Shown here: piece after piece, positions 39,697 through 47,680 of the stretch
How positions within the stretch are numbered: position 1 is the first letter of the stretch
How the letters are laid out: the number at the start of each line of letters is the position of its first letter
DNA from: Agaribacillus aureus
Lineage (GTDB): Bacteria > Bacteroidota > Bacteroidia > Cytophagales > Cyclobacteriaceae
NCBI GenBank assembly: GCA_030442055.1
Contig: JAUJEB010000003.1
Span: 310,001-374,000, forward strand
Direction of reading: 5' to 3'
Length of the DNA stretch: 64,000 nt
Program-made: the position numbers and the translations under genes
Notes under the pieces: generated by a model
The model's input: only the letters and a program-made list of their open reading frames with translations
What the model was told of the DNA's origin: nothing
Database searches by the model: none

Positions 39697-42447
39697 TCAA
39701 AAACGGAAATTGAAGAAAAAGTTGGGTGTAAATCCTAGCAATAATACGTCTGAGGCTAGATAGACGGGTTCATCGTCGGCTGTGGTAGCAGTATCGTTGG
39801 TAATTTCGTCTATATCCAAAGTTGAAAAGCGCTTGTATTTTACATTCTTCCTGCCGTAAACATTATATACTGACAAGCCGAATTGCGCTTTGCCCTTTCC
39901 AAGATTAAAATTGTAGGCAGCGGCCAAATCAAGTCGGTGATAAGCGGGCAATCTTTCTGTGTTAATATTATCTACTGCCACGTAGTAGGTATTTAAGCTG
40001 TCAAGCGTGACGAGTGGAGATCCTTTTCCGGGGTCTGAAAAAGGCTTTCCGGAACCATATACCCAGGTTGAAGATAAATCCCATCGGCCGGCAGACATCA
40101 TATTGACCAATTTTAGCTCATGTCTTTGATCCTGACTGGCGGCAAAGGGTCTTCCTCCGTTTAAATCCGGAAAAGAGTTTTCCACTTTGCTAAGAGAATA
40201 ACTCAGCCAACCGGTATGCTTGCCGGTTTTTTTCTGTATCAAAAAATCAACTCCGGTAGCCACGCTGTTCCCTGCCAAAAAAACATTGACCAACTCATCT
40301 TCACCACTGTCGCTGACTTTTAAATCGGGAAAGAAATCCGTAATCCCCTCGGTATCTTTACGGTAAGCCTCAACATCGATCAACCAGTTATCAGACTCAT
40401 ATGATATTCCCGCCACCAGGTGCTCCGAAACAACATGCGGGATATTATTGCCATCTGCCAACAACCAAAATGAAGAGTTTACATCGTAGAGGTTTTCCTC
40501 AAATAAAATCCTGTTGATAAACTGGTTGTGTTTCCCCCAGGCCGCTTTAAGCTTTATCTTCGGGGATACCTGGTAATGAAGTGATGCCCTGGGCTCAATA
40601 AAATCTTCACCGATTACGTCGTAATGATTGTTTCTGACACCGAAGGTGATACCCAGGTTATCAAAAGGGTAAAAGGTGTTTTGCACATAAAAAGTTAACT
40701 GTTCTCCCCTATCGGAAAAACTATCGGCAGATTCTCCGTTGATGGAGAACTGAAAATCAATTTCATTTTTTGTATAAAGCGATCCAAACGCTAACTCGGA
40801 CTTTTTACCAATTTTCAGCTGGTTATCCCATCTGATACTAACATCTGACAGACTGTTCCTGATCCGCTGCGTACGATCGCGCAATAAGGTATCAATTTCA
40901 AGTACCGGTATTGAGAAAAGTAACTTTTCAAAATTGTCCTGCTCAAGCCGGTATTCGGAATAAGCCAGGTTGATGTTGCTATAGAACTTTTGGCTCCATT
41001 GCCTTCCCCAGCGAAGACTGGTACCATCGTTACCCCAGTTAGAGTAATCATCTACCTGCCAGTCAACGTTGGCCCTAAACCCAATATTGCTGGCTTCATC
41101 TATGGTACGATATGAAAAATCCTGGTTAGCGTCGATATCCAGATTATCTCTGCCACTGTAATAAGACCACGATAATACATCCCTGGAGGATGGTCTGTAT
41201 GTTAGTTTGCCATTCAGATCATAAAAGTTAAATACCGGTTCGATATCCTCAAATTCCGCTTCACGCAAGTTGCTGATGATATCCCTGTTCTCCAGGATTA
41301 CCTTGTCAAAGATCTCGCGGTAAAGCCCGGTCTGCAATATATCTGTGTGTGACCTTCTTCCCGCCATAAACAAAGATAGCTTCTTACCTATTGGCAACTC
41401 CAACACCGCATTGGCACTAATTAAGTTTACACCAAAACCGTAAGAAGCGCGATTCATATTTCCAGTTTTGCCGGTAATATCGATGACACTTGACGCCCTA
41501 CCCCCGTATTTGGATTCAAATGCGCCTTTGTAAATCTGGATATTTTTAATGGCGTTGGAATTAAACGCACTAAAAATTCCAAAAAAATGATCGATATGAT
41601 ATACGGAAAAGCCGTCGAATAATATTAGATTCTGATCCGGTGTACTACCTCTGATCACAAGACCGGCGGAAGTTTCATCAGTCCCGCTGATCCCGGGAAG
41701 ATATTGTAATGTTCTGAAAATATCGACCTCACCAAGGCTGGGTAAGCTCAGAAGCCTGGACGGGTTCATCGATATCTGACCGATATTATCCCCGTTATAG
41801 ATCATATCGGACTTTTTCTCTTCCACTACCAATTCCTCCAGTATTTCTGTTTTGCTCGTCAAATTTATTACCAGGCGATCCCTGATATCATAATCACGGA
41901 GTGACACCAGCTTGGTGACATAGCCCAAATAGGTAATTTCTAAAGTGGAAGATCCGCTTGGTAATCCCAGCAGTGAAAAGAAGCCATCCACATTTGATGT
42001 AGTTCCTGCATCTGCGCCGTGTACCCGTATATTGGCAAAAGGTAACGTTTCTCCGGTCTGAGAATCTTTGATGACACCTTTTATATTTAGTGGTTTACTA
42101 CTCCTGATCTCCGCGCTGATGGGAAATGTCTTTCTTCGGGCCGGCGGCAAGATGATAACGCCTTGTTCCGCCACCCGAAACCTTAAGTGCGTTCCCTCAA
42201 GGAGTAATCCGACTGCCTCTGCTACCGGGAGTTGATAAATATTTTGGGTGACTTTATGGTCTGTTAAAAGCTTGTGGTCATAGGCAAACTTGATGTCGTA
42301 CTTTTTTTTCAGCTTCTTTAAAACTTTTACAAGAGGAACTTTATAAAAAGTTTCACTGATCAATACCACATCATCACTTTGACCAAAACCGGAGAGGTCA
42401 ATCAACAAAAGTGTGATTAATAGCGGTATGATGGAAAGCTTAGACAT
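39697..42447 (-). CDS. TonB-dependent receptor with STN signalling domain
   Basis: The 916-residue protein has a signal peptide ending GFGQ. An STN domain (about 30-100, with VPLVKVLKKLKKKYDIKFAYD) contacts the anti-sigma factor. A carboxypeptidase-like domain (about 122-200, IKGVIKDSQTGETLPFANI), a plug (about 215-330, with LVIRGSTPDQNLILFDGFSVY) and a barrel ending NFFFNFRF follow. It is both a transporter and a surface sensor. It is the last gene of a sigma, FecR, receptor row and starts 10 bp after the FecR stop. The ligand is unknown; plugs of this form are found in FecA-like and glycan receptors alike. Confidence 0.94.
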   Translation of the reverse strand: MSKLSIIPLLITLLLIDLSGFGQSDDVVLISETFYKVPLVKVLKKLKKKYDIKFAYDHKLLTDHKVTQNIYQLPVAEAVGLLLEGTHLRFRVAEQGVIILPPARRKTFPISAEIRSSKPLNIKGVIKDSQTGETLPFANIRVHGADAGTTSNVDGFFSLLGLPSGSSTLEITYLGYVTKLVSLRDYDIRDRLVINLTSKTEILEELVVEEKKSDMIYNGDNIGQISMNPSRLLSLPSLGEVDIFRTLQYLPGISGTDETSAGLVIRGSTPDQNLILFDGFSVYHIDHFFGIFSAFNSNAIKNIQIYKGAFESKYGGRASSVIDITGKTGNMNRASYGFGVNLISANAVLELPIGKKLSLFMAGRRSHTDILQTGLYREIFDKVILENRDIISNLREAEFEDIEPVFNFYDLNGKLTYRPSSRDVLSWSYYSGRDNLDIDANQDFSYRTIDEASNIGFRANVDWQVDDYSNWGNDGTSLRWGRQWSQKFYSNINLAYSEYRLEQDNFEKLLFSIPVLEIDTLLRDRTQRIRNSLSDVSIRWDNQLKIGKKSELAFGSLYTKNEIDFQFSINGESADSFSDRGEQLTFYVQNTFYPFDNLGITFGVRNNHYDVIGEDFIEPRASLHYQVSPKIKLKAAWGKHNQFINRILFEENLYDVNSSFWLLADGNNIPHVVSEHLVAGISYESDNWLIDVEAYRKDTEGITDFFPDLKVSDSGEDELVNVFLAGNSVATGVDFLIQKKTGKHTGWLSYSLSKVENSFPDLNGGRPFAASQDQRHELKLVNMMSAGRWDLSSTWVYGSGKPFSDPGKGSPLVTLDSLNTYYVAVDNINTERLPAYHRLDLAAAYNFNLGKGKAQFGLSVYNVYGRKNVKYKRFSTLDIDEITNDTATTADDEPVYLASDVLLLGFTPNFFFNFRF

Positions 42448-42457
42448 CCATAATCAA

Positions 42458-43408
42458 TTAATAAATGATTATTGTATTATCTTGAATTTCATATTGCAAA
42501 TCCATTGGCAAGCAAATTAGCTCCAATGCCTTTTCCATCTCAACTTTATTGAAGTATCCCGAGTAAATACGTCCGCTGATATCTGTCGTAATTTTAAGTG
42601 TTACATCAAACTGTCTGTCAAACTCTTCAAAAACATCAATCAGGGGTTGTTTATCAAAATAGTATTCGCCGGATTTCCAGCCGGCTATATTTGTCGGCTT
42701 AAAGGTAAAGGGTTCTGATAGTTTTTGGTTCATTATCTTGGTAGCAAAGCCATTTGATAAGACTTTCTCTGATTTATCATTGAAAAGTGACACCGAAACC
42801 TCACCAGTAAAACATGAAACCTCGTAGCCTTCCTTTCTCGCTTTCACGTTGAAACTGGTACCCAAAACAGTCACTTTTCCAATTTCACTATTCACCACAA
42901 ATTTCGTACCCTTTTTTACTTCAAAAAAAGCCTCCCCTTCAAGGGAGACGGATCGATTGTCTATCCAGTTGCCTGACTTAAAGGAAAGTTTGGAATCTGC
43001 ATTCAGTGTAATCAGGGAATTGTCTGGCATCGTGATGGTCTTAATTTCACTTTTTGCTGTTTTATATGTAGTCGGATTGTTTGTAAAGAATGTTGCATAG
43101 GCAATGAAGATAATGGCCAGAGAGGCAGCTATGGAAAGGTATTTAAAGATTGGTTTTTTATAGAATGGGACAACGACCGCCCCGGGCTCAGCCTTAGACG
43201 GGTTTGATTCAATTTTATCTACAAGCTTGCTCCAGGCATCTTCTTTACCCTGAGAGGCTGGTATTTTTAACCCCTGGCTTCCATCGATCAACTTTTTAAA
43301 GGTGGCAAATTCCTTGTCATCCTTAAAAACCTTTGGCCCTTCTGAGGAAATCTCTTCGTCGCTTAGATTTCCTTCAAGCCATTTTCTAAAAAACGTATCA
43401 CCCGACAT
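42458..43408 (-). CDS. FecR-family anti-sigma factor
   Basis: The 316-residue protein has a cytoplasmic anti-sigma part (residues 1-80, starting with FFRKWLEGNLSDEE), one membrane helix (about 88-106, YLSIAASLAIIFIAYA), a periplasmic FecR domain (about 120-215, with ITMPDNSLITLNADSKLSF and GEAFFEVKKG) and a C-terminal DUF4974 domain (about 245-316, with FDKQPLIDVFEEFDRQFDV). It holds the ECF sigma factor until the STN domain of the receptor signals. It sits between the sigma gene (57 bp gap) and the receptor gene (10 bp gap). Confidence 0.96.
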   Translation of the reverse strand: MSGDTFFRKWLEGNLSDEEISSEGPKVFKDDKEFATFKKLIDGSQGLKIPASQGKEDAWSKLVDKIESNPSKAEPGAVVVPFYKKPIFKYLSIAASLAIIFIAYATFFTNNPTTYKTAKSEIKTITMPDNSLITLNADSKLSFKSGNWIDNRSVSLEGEAFFEVKKGTKFVVNSEIGKVTVLGTSFNVKARKEGYEVSCFTGEVSVSLFNDKSEKVLSNGFATKIMNQKLSEPFTFKPTNIAGWKSGEYYFDKQPLIDVFEEFDRQFDVTLKITTDISGRIYSGYFNKVEMEKALELICLPMDLQYEIQDNTIIIY

Positions 43409-43465
43409 AATAGCTATGTTAAGTCATTAAAATTATATAACAATATACCCCTGAAAAAATTCATC

Positions 43466-43957
43466 TCAAATAGGATGCTTTAATTTTTCCCTAAGAAATG
43501 ACAACGCATTGCTCATTCGCTTTTCAATAGCCTTCACGCTCAACTCCAGTCGCTCTGCTATTTCGTTATAAGTAAGTTTGTCAATTCTATTCATCAAAAA
43601 CACGACTCTATAGTTTTCAGGCATTTCTGCCAGCAGGCGCTCCAGGTTTTCTTTGAATTCTTTCATTTCAAGTTCATAATGAGGAGAATCCACCTTTTCA
43701 TTGTGATGCTCATTTCTGGCAAAATTGAAGACTATGCTTCTGTGTTTCAAATGATTGATAGCCATGTTGTTAGCTATAGTAAACAAGAAGCTTTTGACTG
43801 TTTTTAATTCAATCGATGCCCTTTTATCCCATAGTTTCAGAAAGACCTCCTGAACGATGTCTTCGGCTATTTCAATATCTCCGATCTTATAATATAGAAA
43901 GCTCTTAATACCTTCATAATGCTGATCAAATAATGATTTAAAATCGTCAATATTCAT
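43466..43957 (-). CDS. ECF-type RNA polymerase sigma factor
   Basis: The 163-residue protein contains region 2 (YYKIGDIEIAEDIVQEVFLK and LWDKRASIE, then SFLFTIANNMAINHLKH) and region 4 (LPENYRVVF-like AEMPENYRVVFLMNR, LTYNEIAERLELSVKAIE, KRMSNALSFL). This is the ECF group paired with FecR in Bacteroidota. It directs transcription of the downstream receptor and possibly other genes when released. A TTG at 43969 would add four residues; ATG 43957 is preferred because MNIDDFKSLFDQHY is the usual start. Confidence 0.95.
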   Translation of the reverse strand: MNIDDFKSLFDQHYEGIKSFLYYKIGDIEIAEDIVQEVFLKLWDKRASIELKTVKSFLFTIANNMAINHLKHRSIVFNFARNEHHNEKVDSPHYELEMKEFKENLERLLAEMPENYRVVFLMNRIDKLTYNEIAERLELSVKAIEKRMSNALSFLREKLKHPI

Positions 43958-44275
43958 AAAACCCAACAATACCTACTTTTAACAAAAATAATTTGATTCC
44001 AATAATATGCAGGCCAAAAGCCCGCTGGCTTTAAATGATGTAATAAAAGGACTTAGATCGTTTAAAAATAAACAATGTATTCTAAATAATTGGCAAATTG
44101 GGTGATATTCATTTCGCTAATTTGCTTAACCCATCCAACGAGCCTTCAATTTTCCTGTCGATATATTAAAATTAACACAGTATTCATCAAATAATTCCCA
44201 ACATTTTTAGGACTATTAATTTCTATTTTTAAATATTGCAGAAAATTAAATTTAAAACCGGAAACAGGTAAATTG
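43958..44275. other. Divergent intergenic region, 318 bp
   Basis: AT-rich region between the sigma-factor gene and the nucleotidyltransferase gene. It must contain both promoters. No complete promoter pair, hairpin or repeat stands out. Confidence 0.4.
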
Positions 44276-45184
44276 ATGAAACCAACACTATTAGTATTAG
44301 CAGCAGGAATGGGTAGCCGCTACGGAGGACTTAAGCAAATTGATCAACTCGGACCTTCAGGTGAAACCATTATTGAATACTCAGTCTATGATGCCATTAA
44401 AGCGGGCTTCGGGAAGGTGGTATTTGTAATAAGAAGAAGTATTGAAAAAGAATTTAAAGAGGCCCTGGGAGATAAATTTTCGCACCTGATCGAGGTCGAT
44501 TACGCTATCCAGGAAATCGATGTTCACATCGAAGGGATAGACAACATGCCTAAAAGAGAAAAGCCCTGGGGCACCGGCCATGCTGTTTTGGTAGCTGCTG
44601 ATAAAATAGATACACCTTTTGCCGTCATCAATGCCGACGACTTTTACGGACGCGGCGCATTCCAGGAGCTGGCTACATTTGCAGAACAGCTGAACGGAAG
44701 CGACGACTACGCCTATGCCATGGTAGGTTATATCTTAAAAAATACATTGTCTGATCATGGGTCGGTATCGCGGGGTGTTTGCGAAACCAACACGGAAAAT
44801 CACCTGGTGACTGTCACTGAAAGGACCAAAATCCAGGCGGATAGTGGAAAAATACATTATATAGATAATGAAGGGCAAAAACATGAATTGGCAGAAAATA
44901 CTGTGGTCTCCATGAACTTCTGGGGATTTACACCCTCCATATTTGAGGAGCTAAGAAAGCAATTCATCCGGTTTGTCGCCGAAAATACAGACAATCCTAA
45001 AGCAGAGTTTTTTATTCCGTTGGTTGTTAATCACATGATTGTAAACGATATGGCCTCCATCGAAGTATTAACCTGCGAGGATAAGTGGTTTGGTATCACC
45101 TACAAAGAAGATAAGGAAATTGTAAAAGAAGCCTTTAACAGATTTGTTGAAAGCGGTACATATCCAAGTCCTTTGTGGGGTTAG
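44276..45184 (+). CDS. Sugar-phosphate nucleotidyltransferase-like protein
   Basis: The 302-residue protein begins LLVLAAGMGSRYGGLKQID, the nucleotide-binding motif of the glucose-1-phosphate thymidylyl/uridylyltransferase class, with VINADDFYG (metal-binding acidic pair) near residue 120. The region EKPWGTGHAVL and the C-terminal MNFWGFTPSIFEEL match a Bacteroidota group of NDP-sugar transferases. The exact sugar is not predictable. A TTG in the preceding codon (44273) is not needed; ATG 44276 gives the family start. It is monocistronic, followed by 1.2 kb without genes. Confidence 0.88.
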   Translation: MKPTLLVLAAGMGSRYGGLKQIDQLGPSGETIIEYSVYDAIKAGFGKVVFVIRRSIEKEFKEALGDKFSHLIEVDYAIQEIDVHIEGIDNMPKREKPWGTGHAVLVAADKIDTPFAVINADDFYGRGAFQELATFAEQLNGSDDYAYAMVGYILKNTLSDHGSVSRGVCETNTENHLVTVTERTKIQADSGKIHYIDNEGQKHELAENTVVSMNFWGFTPSIFEELRKQFIRFVAENTDNPKAEFFIPLVVNHMIVNDMASIEVLTCEDKWFGITYKEDKEIVKEAFNRFVESGTYPSPLWG

Positions 45185-45369
45185 GTCTTGACCTTTGTAT
45201 TCAGTCTTTGAAAATACTTAATTCCTACAAGGGATTACCATCAACGCGCGGAGGTGCATAAGCATAGCTGTCAGTGGTGGAAATCATTTAACGCTAAAAT
45301 AGGCCAAGGCCTTCAAAAGTAGCGTTTATGTCCTATGGCTATTTTCTAATTTTCAAATGTAGAGACAAT

Positions 45370-45514
45370 AAAAAAGCACGCGCTTGGGAACGCGTGCCTA
45401 TTGGATTTTAAACCAAAATTACAACCAAAACATCCAATTTCCTTTTAGAAAGTTTTCTTAGTTCGTTACTAAGTCAACGTTTTTATATCTTGGAATATTT
45501 TATTCTACACTTCG
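45370..45514 (-). ncRNA. Candidate structured small RNA with a four-codon minigene
   Basis: Reading the minus strand, three hairpins follow one another. The first is CTTAGT/ACTAAG (45473-45457). The second is ATTGGAT/ATCCAAT (45438-45432 with 45406-45400), extended by TTTT/AAAA after one bulged G. The third is GCACGCG/CGCGTGC (45397-45376), directly followed by six U (45375-45370), a textbook terminator. Between the first and second lies AAAAGGA (45446-45440), then exactly 6 nt, then ATG at 45433 opening the ORF M-F-W-L-stop (ends 45419). The ATG sits inside the second stem. A near-consensus -7 element, CATATTTG, lies at 45528-45521. The transcript would be about 145 nt. No Rfam family is recognised from memory. 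The alternative is a terminator of the nucleotidyltransferase gene on the plus strand, but the U-tract is on the other strand. Confidence 0.5.
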
Positions 45515-45520
45515 TAAATA

Positions 45521-45528
45521 CAAATATG
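45521..45528 (-). promoter_or_regulatory. Near-consensus -7 element (CATATTTG) for the candidate small RNA
   Basis: It matches TAnnTTTG at five of six fixed positions on the minus strand and would place the start near 45514. No -33 TTTG is found at the usual spacing, so the element is weak on its own. Confidence 0.35.
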
Positions 45529-46283
45529 CCAATAAAAACTTTTAAAACCTAGACTATTAAAAATAAAAGATATTCGACATTACTTTAAATAGTCCTAAAA
45601 ATTATTTGAATTATTAAATATATAACAATTTTTTTAAATATCCAATTTTATAGGTATTTATTTAGCGATCAATTTTGCAACAGGCAGACCGGGTGTTGAT
45701 AAAAAGTGTCTATCGCCCTAACGAAAAATATCTTAACCGTCAATCCGTCGCCAAATAGGGCCAGTCGCTAAGAAGTTAAGTTCCGGATCTATCCGTTAGT
45801 CGGCTATTTGGTATACCGTTAACCCACTTATTTTCAAGTGTAATAAATCGCATCAATAAAGAAGAAAATTAAATGATCAAAGGATATGTATATTGCAATC
45901 GACCGGAATATATTCTAAAAAAAATTGAACACTTTTATGTAAATTTTAAAAGGGCCTGTGCAATTGAAATGTTCATATTACCCGAATTTTATTAAAATAA
46001 TTATATTTTTATAGGTAAATAGTTCAAATTTTTAATTTATAAATCCCGAATCTTACACTCTGATTAATTATAATTTTTCTTATAAAAACAATAGCTTTTG
46101 CGAGTAGCTTATTCGAGAATATTGAATTAACATATTTATTTCTAAGGATTAAATTTGAATTATAGGTTTTAAAAATTTTGAAAAGTTAAAGAAGGAAGAA
46201 TTAATTAATCAGTAATGCCCAAGTTAGGATTAATTGATAAGTTTTAAAATCTATGATTAAAAGTCTCATTATGGTTAACTTCA
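45529..46283. other. AT-rich non-coding stretch with a more GC-rich island
   Basis: No gene is supported. An island near 45680-45840 is less AT-rich and holds CTTAAC (45732-45737) with GTTAAG (45775-45780) and CCAAATAG (45751-45758) with CTATTTGG (45804-45811), two interleaved inverted repeats, plus a small hairpin CACTT/AAGTG near 45826-45841. The stretch ends at a strong plus-strand terminator. It may contain an untranslated RNA or a decayed gene. Confidence 0.35.
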
Positions 46284-46318
46284 AAATGCTACCGGCTCTT
46301 CGTTGGTAGCATTTTTTA
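46284..46318 (+). terminator. Strong intrinsic terminator with no obvious gene upstream
   Basis: AAAATGCTACC at 46284-46294 pairs exactly with GGTAGCATTTT at 46306-46316, with an 11-nt loop and a T-tract running through 46318. It points along the plus strand but the nearest plus-strand gene ends 1.1 kb upstream. It lies just before the tyrS promoter. Confidence 0.8.
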
Positions 46319-46364
46319 TGACAATATCCTCCCCGATATGGCCCTGTAAATAACGCAAAGTTTA

Positions 46365-46372
46365 TATATTTG
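46365..46372 (+). promoter_or_regulatory. tyrS -7 promoter element (TATATTTG)
   Basis: TATATTTG matches the Bacteroidota -7 consensus TAnnTTTG exactly, 24 bp before the tyrS ATG. A CCTG 18 bp upstream (46343-46346) is a weak -33. Transcription would start near 46379, leaving a leader of about 18 nt. The in-frame TTG at 46370 lies inside this element and so cannot be the start codon. Confidence 0.65.
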
Positions 46373-46396
46373 CAGCGCTTAACCACAACGAACAGT

Positions 46397-47680
46397 ATGA
46401 AAGATTTTATTGAAGAGCTAGAATGGCGGGGTATGTTACACGATATAATGCCTGGTACCAGGGAGCAATTGCAGCAAGAAGTTACCTCCGCCTACATCGG
46501 ATTTGATCCGACTTCAGACTCGCTTCATATTGGCAATCTGGCCACTATCATGCTGTTGGCTCATTTTCAACGCGCCGGGCACAAGCCCTATGCATTGGTA
46601 GGTGGCGCCACTGGAATGATCGGTGATCCTTCCGGAAAATCACAGGAACGACAGCTGTTGGACGAAGAACAGTTGAGGTATAATGAGGAATGTATTAAAA
46701 AGCAATTAAGTCATTTTCTGGATTTTGATTCTGTTTCGAATGCGGCCGAAATGGTCAATAATTACGACTGGTTTCAAAATGTCAGTTTTCTCAATTTTCT
46801 CAGAGATACAGGGAAACACCTTTCGATCAACTATATGCTGGCCAAGGACTCCGTCAAAAACAGGCTGGAATCGGGCTTGTCTTTTACTGAATTTTCCTAT
46901 CAGTTGTTGCAAGGTTATGATTTTTACTACCTGAATACCCACCATAATGTCAAATTACAAATGGGTGGATCAGATCAATGGGGAAATATCACAACGGGAA
47001 CGGAATTGATAAGAAGAAAAGCAGGCAAGGAGGCCTTTGCACTGACCACACCATTGCTGACCAAGTCCGACGGAAGCAAATTCGGAAAATCAGAGGAAGG
47101 AAATGTATGGCTGGATCCCACCAAAACCTCCCCATATAAATTTTATCAATTTCTATTAAATTGTGCTGATGAGGAGGCTCCCAGGCTATTGAGGGTCTTT
47201 ACTTTTTTAAGCAAGGAGGAAGTGGAAGAACTGGAAAAAAAGCATCAGGAAGCACCTCATTTAAGAATACTTCAAAAAGCCATCGCCGAGGAATTAACAA
47301 TTCGGGTGCATTCCAGGGAAGAATTTGAGATGGCAGTGAAAGCTTCTGAAATTCTTTTTGGCAAATCCACTACCGACGATCTTGCGTCGATCAATGAAGC
47401 TACTTTATTGTCAGTTTTTGAAGGAGTTCCTCAGGTAACGGTCTCCCGGGATTCGCTTGGCCAGGAAAATGATATGCTCACTTTTCTTTCCGAAACCACG
47501 CAGGGGCTTGTCTTCGCATCCAAAGGCGAGGCCCGGAGAATGATACAGGGAGGAGGCGTGAGTATTAATAAAAACAAAATCACCGCCATTGATCAAAAGC
47601 TGGATTTTGAATTACTACAGGATAAATACCTGCTGGTTCAAAAAGGCCGGCGCAATTATTATTTGGTTACCTTCGACTAG
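46397..47680 (+). CDS. tyrS: Tyrosyl-tRNA synthetase
   Basis: The 427-residue protein is a class I aminoacyl-tRNA synthetase that charges tRNA-Tyr. The ATP-binding HIGH motif appears as HIGN (residues 44-47 in [14 protein letters not shown]). The tyrosine site includes YDFYYLN and [11 protein letters not shown], and the KMSKS loop is KFGKS (228-232). A C-terminal S4 RNA-binding domain contains [18 protein letters not shown]. The length is normal for the bacterial TyrS type. The ATG at 46397 is chosen because a longer frame starts inside the -7 promoter element. It is monocistronic and convergent with a small outer membrane protein gene. Confidence 0.98.

Follow-up and report, generated by a model that had tools for sequence, protein, structure and literature searches.

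Small RNAs of the Bacteroidota, as described in the parts of the literature drawn on here, come from Bacteroides and Flavobacterium. In Bacteroides thetaiotaomicron, GibS (∼145 nt) and FopS (∼65–70 nt) carry a long conserved single-stranded seed in their 5′ part; such RNAs are mostly intergenic, and they pair around start codons through this seed and repress the mRNA (PMC7366714, PMC11697453). GibS is described there as intergenic with a terminator, and FopS as having 14 paralogues (PMC7366714, PMC11697453). Rfp18 of Flavobacterium psychrophilum is a structured small RNA conserved in a limited group; its pairing region is predicted to be a stem-loop, and its deletion is reported to lower two metalloprotease mRNAs (PMC9723704). 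The locus considered here lies in a 64,000-nt stretch of the Agaribacillus aureus genome (the window) and, by description rather than by direct sequence comparison, is like GibS in being intergenic with a terminator of its own, like GibS and FopS in its long conserved loop, and like Rfp18 in being structured and confined to few genomes. It differs from GibS and FopS in that conservation falls on a stem-loop immediately ahead of the terminator instead of on a 5′ seed, from FopS in being single-copy, and from Rfp18 in lineage and in that RNA's link to metalloproteases. Among the titles listed by literature searches none names this RNA, and a search on four terms for small RNAs of the Cytophagales found nothing. 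For that order the locus provides a compact candidate, strongly conserved and amenable to testing.

The candidate small RNA is on the minus strand between a nucleotidyltransferase (NTP-transferase) gene (plus strand, 44276–45184) and tyrS (plus strand, 46400–47680), tail to tail with the former and pointing away from the latter. The assumed transcript (45370–45515, ∼145–146 nt) spans the stretch from a promoter-like box to an intrinsic terminator. From the letters of the window, the original prediction had described three hairpins, an AAAAGGA 6 nt before an ATG that encodes only M-F-W-L-stop, and a terminator with a U tract, all on the minus strand, and all of these are present as it described them. 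The first hairpin, CTTAG/CTAAG, lies at ∼45457–45473 and is followed by AAAAGGA at 45440–45446; six bases further on is the ATG (45433–45431) of the four-codon frame ATG-TTT-TGG-TTG-TAA (45419–45433). The second stem, ATTGGAT/ATCCAAT, can be read directly as 45438–45432 with 45406–45400, and the terminator (45370–45399) consists of an 11-pair hairpin (45399–45374) and its U tract. On the strand of the RNA, the sole open reading frame (ORF) listed downstream before an ECF sigma-factor gene (43969–43466) is one of 66 amino acids within the NTP-transferase gene. Because the tail-to-tail placement beside tyrS recurs in each of the three genomes that carry the element, the candidate leads no gene and is neither a riboswitch nor a leader. 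It thus combines intergenic placement and its own intrinsic terminator with the lack of a leader role, the features that mark the trans-acting intergenic type of GibS, FopS and Rfp18. The ECF sigma-factor gene, identified by Pfam, opens a minus-strand cluster within 39697–43969, whose following genes we take from their sequence to be FecR-like and then TonB-dependent receptor-like.

The conserved core is a 47-nt segment (45393–45439, minus strand) made up of the second stem, a 25-nt loop (45407–45431) and the start of the terminator stem. A DNA search found it in three of 59 relatives, namely A. aureus itself, a genome of the same genus (G001) and a genome of the same family (G016), and a pattern search allowing up to three mismatches found it in three of 196 family genomes. 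The three sequences agree at 46 of 47 positions; the loop, GUUUUGGUUGUAAUUUUGGUUUAAA, contains UUUUGGUU twice and is invariant at 24 of its 25 positions, the final one being U in G016. In all three carriers the core adjoins tyrS in the same orientation, and the tail-to-tail spacing to the facing gene is ∼130–190 bases. This facing gene is the NTP transferase in A. aureus and G001, and in G016 an APH-type kinase that comes after an NTP-transferase-like ORF. Identity at fourfold-degenerate sites of tyrS is 27–37% (49/131 between the window and G001, 30/104 between the window and G016, and 28/104 between G001 and G016), near saturation, and the remaining intergenic DNA gives no convincing alignment with G016. 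Since 46 of 47 core positions are invariant while these synonymous sites are near saturation, the core is, as judged by sequence comparison, under strong selection, and on the same footing the element is real, strongly conserved and lineage-restricted. The pairs of the second stem are themselves invariant, and therefore neither support nor refute the hairpin.

The strand and the 3′ end of the RNA are indicated by the terminator. Its stems are GGCACGCG/CGCGUGCC in G001, GGCACGCG/CGCGUGCU in the window and GGCACGCU/AGCGUGCC in G016, so that the pairs are kept as the innermost changes from G-C to U-A and the outermost from G-C to G-U; these changes were read by eye, the stems not being lined up in the automatic alignments A1 and A2. 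In all three genomes the hairpin runs into a T-rich tract when read on the RNA strand; read on the plus strand in the window, it has no such tract. The minus-strand T tract in three of three genomes and conservation that extends past the hairpin speak against the alternative that had been named from the start, in which the hairpin only ends a plus-strand mRNA. Upstream, a promoter-like box, CATATTTG (45521–45528, minus strand), is marked by CATATTTGT, the sole 9-mer common to the 200-nt upstream stretches of the three genomes. Some 9-mer is shared by 48 of 2000 shuffled triples, and as promoter evidence the shared string is suggestive only. Lacking the first base, CATATTTGT resembles TAnnTTTG, the consensus reported for sigma-A in F. 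psychrophilum (PMC9723704). No clear −33 element is seen at the box, and it is not among the E. coli-type sites predicted.

Transcription is assumed to start near 45513–45515. The box directly precedes the hairpin in G016, and the predicted RNAs would accordingly differ in length, at ∼85 nt in G016, ∼145 nt in the window and ∼165 nt in G001. The 5′ half is variable and not common to G016: the first hairpin of the window is replaced by a different hairpin in G001, and the segment is missing in G016, leaving the second hairpin and the terminator as the constant part. For an sRNA gene, then, the core, the terminator and the synteny are observed, and we infer transcription and the 5′ end. The prediction of a small RNA at this position gains support because three genomes combine conservation and synteny with a shared upstream box and a same-strand terminator whose pairing is kept by compensation, and the locus is most probably a stand-alone small RNA, ordinary in kind.

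Searches for wider homologues add little to these three genomes. Rfam gave no match at the gathering threshold over the window and six permissive matches within 45150–46400, all below their thresholds; the best of those that overlap the core in its own orientation, to the trpB motif, reached 20.6 bits against a threshold of 59, and the core matches no family of Rfam 15 at that standard. The exact 20-nt loop string occurs in seven stretches among 84,980 species, two of which are real (G001 and G016) and five of which have neither stem nor terminator. A covariance model (R1) built from the three carriers scored them at 104.3, 97 and 86.9 bits, these being the sequences that built the model. Applied to 390 genomes of the order, a sample in which G001 and G016 were presumably not drawn, R1 matched 46 at E up to 1, with A. 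aureus alone below 0.001 and the next at 0.0074. Eight of the weak order matches were examined by score, five by alignment and three by ORF context, and none of those three lies beside tyrS. Among 390 family genomes, nine matched at E up to 0.1, comprising the three carriers and six weak matches (30.2–38 bits), the best of them in G540 (E 4.6e-4 for one genome). Alignments were viewed for three of the six and context for all: two overlap the start of an ORF read in the opposite direction, another two come after an ORF in the position of a terminator, a fifth falls inside an ORF of the opposite strand, and the sixth, in G030, is intergenic and similar-looking. We read the weak matches as chance or unproven. 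The G030 match (L117, 2645–2723, plus strand; 34.9 bits) is a hairpin, AUCUGAU/AUCAGAU, whose loop starts with GUUUUGGCUG and which has a terminator-like hairpin directly after it; it is core-like with a compensated stem and does not lie beside tyrS.

The tyrS loci of 30 of 57 matching genomes were scanned for the loop, and beyond the three carriers none had it with fewer than four mismatches; no NTP-transferase neighbour was seen at two further tyrS loci that were viewed. Viral contigs, phages and plasmids held no homologue. The A. aureus genome has a single copy of the core, a second match (E 3.38) being rejected as a copy because it coincides with a coding sequence that we presume to be cytochrome-maturation-like. 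In the searches made there is no convincing homologue beyond the three genomes, and since the 390-genome samples overlap and cover part of the family and order, the filters were strict and the model had three sequences, diverged relatives could be missed.

The explanation we prefer, with a probability of about one half, is a stand-alone, lineage-restricted, trans-acting intergenic small RNA whose U/G-rich loop is an mRNA seed, with the Shine-Dalgarno-like sequence and the minigene being accidental. A promoter near 45521–45528 would start the ∼145-nt minus-strand RNA, which would be ended by the terminator at 45399–45370; the selected part would be the short stem and the 25-nt U/G-rich loop with its two UUUUGGUU repeats, directly before the terminator. 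As an extended seed, its most likely role, the loop would pair in trans with the start regions of at least one mRNA and so alter translation or stability, by analogy with the repression exerted by GibS and FopS in Bacteroides. The predicted folds bear on how accessible such a seed would be. The region is more stable than dinucleotide shuffles (z = −3.27, with 1 of 200 shuffles as stable; z = −3.33 and 0 of 200 for 45515–45370), an excess for which the terminator accounts in part. The original prediction had the ATG inside the second stem; this stem is present and forms with pair probabilities of 0.70–0.96 in the isolated 3′ part of the window RNA, but in the assumed 146-nt RNA its probability is at most 0.001 because the 5′ segment pairs with the stem instead. 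The corresponding values are 0.35–0.47 in the assumed G001 RNA and 0.85–1.0 in the shorter G016 RNA. When the core alone is folded, the loop stays single-stranded in both the window and the G001 sequence; in the predicted fold of the complete window RNA it pairs with the 5′ segment. Against the preferred explanation, the seed would be partly buried in the full window RNA, and the core is carried by three genomes only.

Target tests gave no support for any target. Sites within three mismatches of the 18-nt loop complement, counted with the locus itself included, numbered 35, 30 and 32 in the three genomes, where the reversed control pattern gave 75, 42 and 59, so that complementary sites are in no genome in excess and are fewer than in the control. 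The best start-codon candidate was a DUF1501-like gene of G001, with ACCAAAAUUUAAACCAAAAUG at its start (−20.3 kcal/mol). Its A. aureus counterpart keeps AAACCAAAAUG (−15.7 kcal/mol) and the G016 counterpart has lost the site (−14.6 kcal/mol using a longer segment of the small RNA), and 4 of 44 ORF starts in the window score −18 or better. Because its pairing weakens in A. aureus, is lost from G016 and lies inside the spread of scores for ORF starts of the window, the gene was rejected as a target.

That complementary sites are not in excess in any of the three genomes also suits the main rival to the seed reading, a protein-binding RNA in which the loop with its two UUUUGGUU copies would serve as a single-stranded platform or decoy for an RNA-binding protein rather than as an mRNA seed. 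The invariance of a duplicated U/G-rich loop fits this proposal, as does the Bacteroides protein RbpB, which binds single-stranded regions of small RNAs; the RbpB-bound small RNAs nevertheless also act by base pairing (PMC11697453). Any partner protein of the present RNA would be hypothetical, and we regard this rival as unlikely. A further idea takes the hairpin with its duplicated loop by the terminator as the whole of the selected content, either a double seed or a two-site protein platform, with the variable 5′ extension of two genomes, missing from the third, masking or freeing the hairpin and thereby regulating its availability; the idea is quite doubtful. Action in cis on the convergent NTP-transferase or kinase mRNA, whether the element is antisense to that mRNA or serves as a convergent terminator region, would account for the tail-to-tail arrangement ∼130–190 bases apart in all three genomes. 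It is improbable, as the facing gene is not the same in the third genome and the window hairpin has no plus-strand T tract; moreover, an antisense RNA acting in cis stays complementary however its sequence drifts and would not need a core invariant at 46 of 47 positions. More improbable again is a conserved DNA element, a protein-binding inverted repeat by an ordinary terminator, with no RNA function: ATTGGAT/ATCCAAT is indeed an inverted repeat and is invariant in the three genomes, yet the conserved block takes in the whole loop and runs into the co-oriented terminator, and the upstream box is found in all three.

Least probable is the reading that had drawn attention to the locus, a four-codon minigene driven by a Shine-Dalgarno (SD) sequence that senses ribosomes, acts as a switch or serves as an anti-SD decoy. 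In the window AAAAGGA is well spaced before the ATG, with a predicted pairing of −5.8 kcal/mol to the 16S tail; the same calculation for the 16 nt upstream of the ATG gives −0.6 in G001 and −1.1 in G016, where the counterparts of the motif are AAAAGTC and AAAGATA. Equal or stronger pairing is found at 12% of the 2163 window ATGs for the window value, 73% for G001 and 67% for G016. The motif AAAGGA-N5-9-ATG occurs three times in the window against a mean of 5.94 in shuffles, and because of this and of the 12% of ATGs that match or exceed its pairing, an SD before an ATG is not above chance here. Nor is the conservation of the frame evidence of translation, because neighbouring positions are equally conserved: the ATG...TAA string is kept only within the 47-nt stretch where all positions but one are. 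Strong SDs are read by Bacteroidota ribosomes without bS21, and one SD-dependent case is known in this group, where SDs are not the norm: rpsU (bS21) mRNA, whose pairing lies below −13 kcal/mol and is widespread (PMC9976891). By comparison, the pairing at this locus is weaker and its SD is present in one of three genomes. The minigene was rejected on these grounds, and a buried start codon working as a switch is likewise unsupported; AAAAGGA and the four-codon frame look accidental when the relatives are aligned, the frame is probably not a gene, and a reading attractive in one genome dissolves on comparison with two relatives.

Two further observations concern the surrounding DNA. Exact copies of the motif TAGGACTATT stand at two places in the window, 44208–44217 (plus strand) upstream of the NTP-transferase gene and 45588–45597 (minus strand) upstream of the candidate RNA; G001 keeps the second. 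With one mismatch it is found eight times against 3.84 expected; a longer form is present in A. aureus and G001 and not in G016, and a reversed control pattern is equally frequent or commoner. On the other side, a second conserved non-coding block (46177–46326, plus strand; fold z = −2.47) ends in a terminator-like hairpin, GCTACC...GGTAGC followed by T6, ∼70 bases before tyrS. Among 59 genomes the query 46085–46340 matched three overall, with 85% identity in G001 (E 6.3e-71), a 29-nt match in G020 (E 9.8e-4) and no match in G016, and the block is possibly a second small RNA. The tyrS gene itself is preceded by a perfect TAnnTTTG box, TATATTTG (46365–46372, plus strand), in a surrounding sequence that is similar in G001 and G016.
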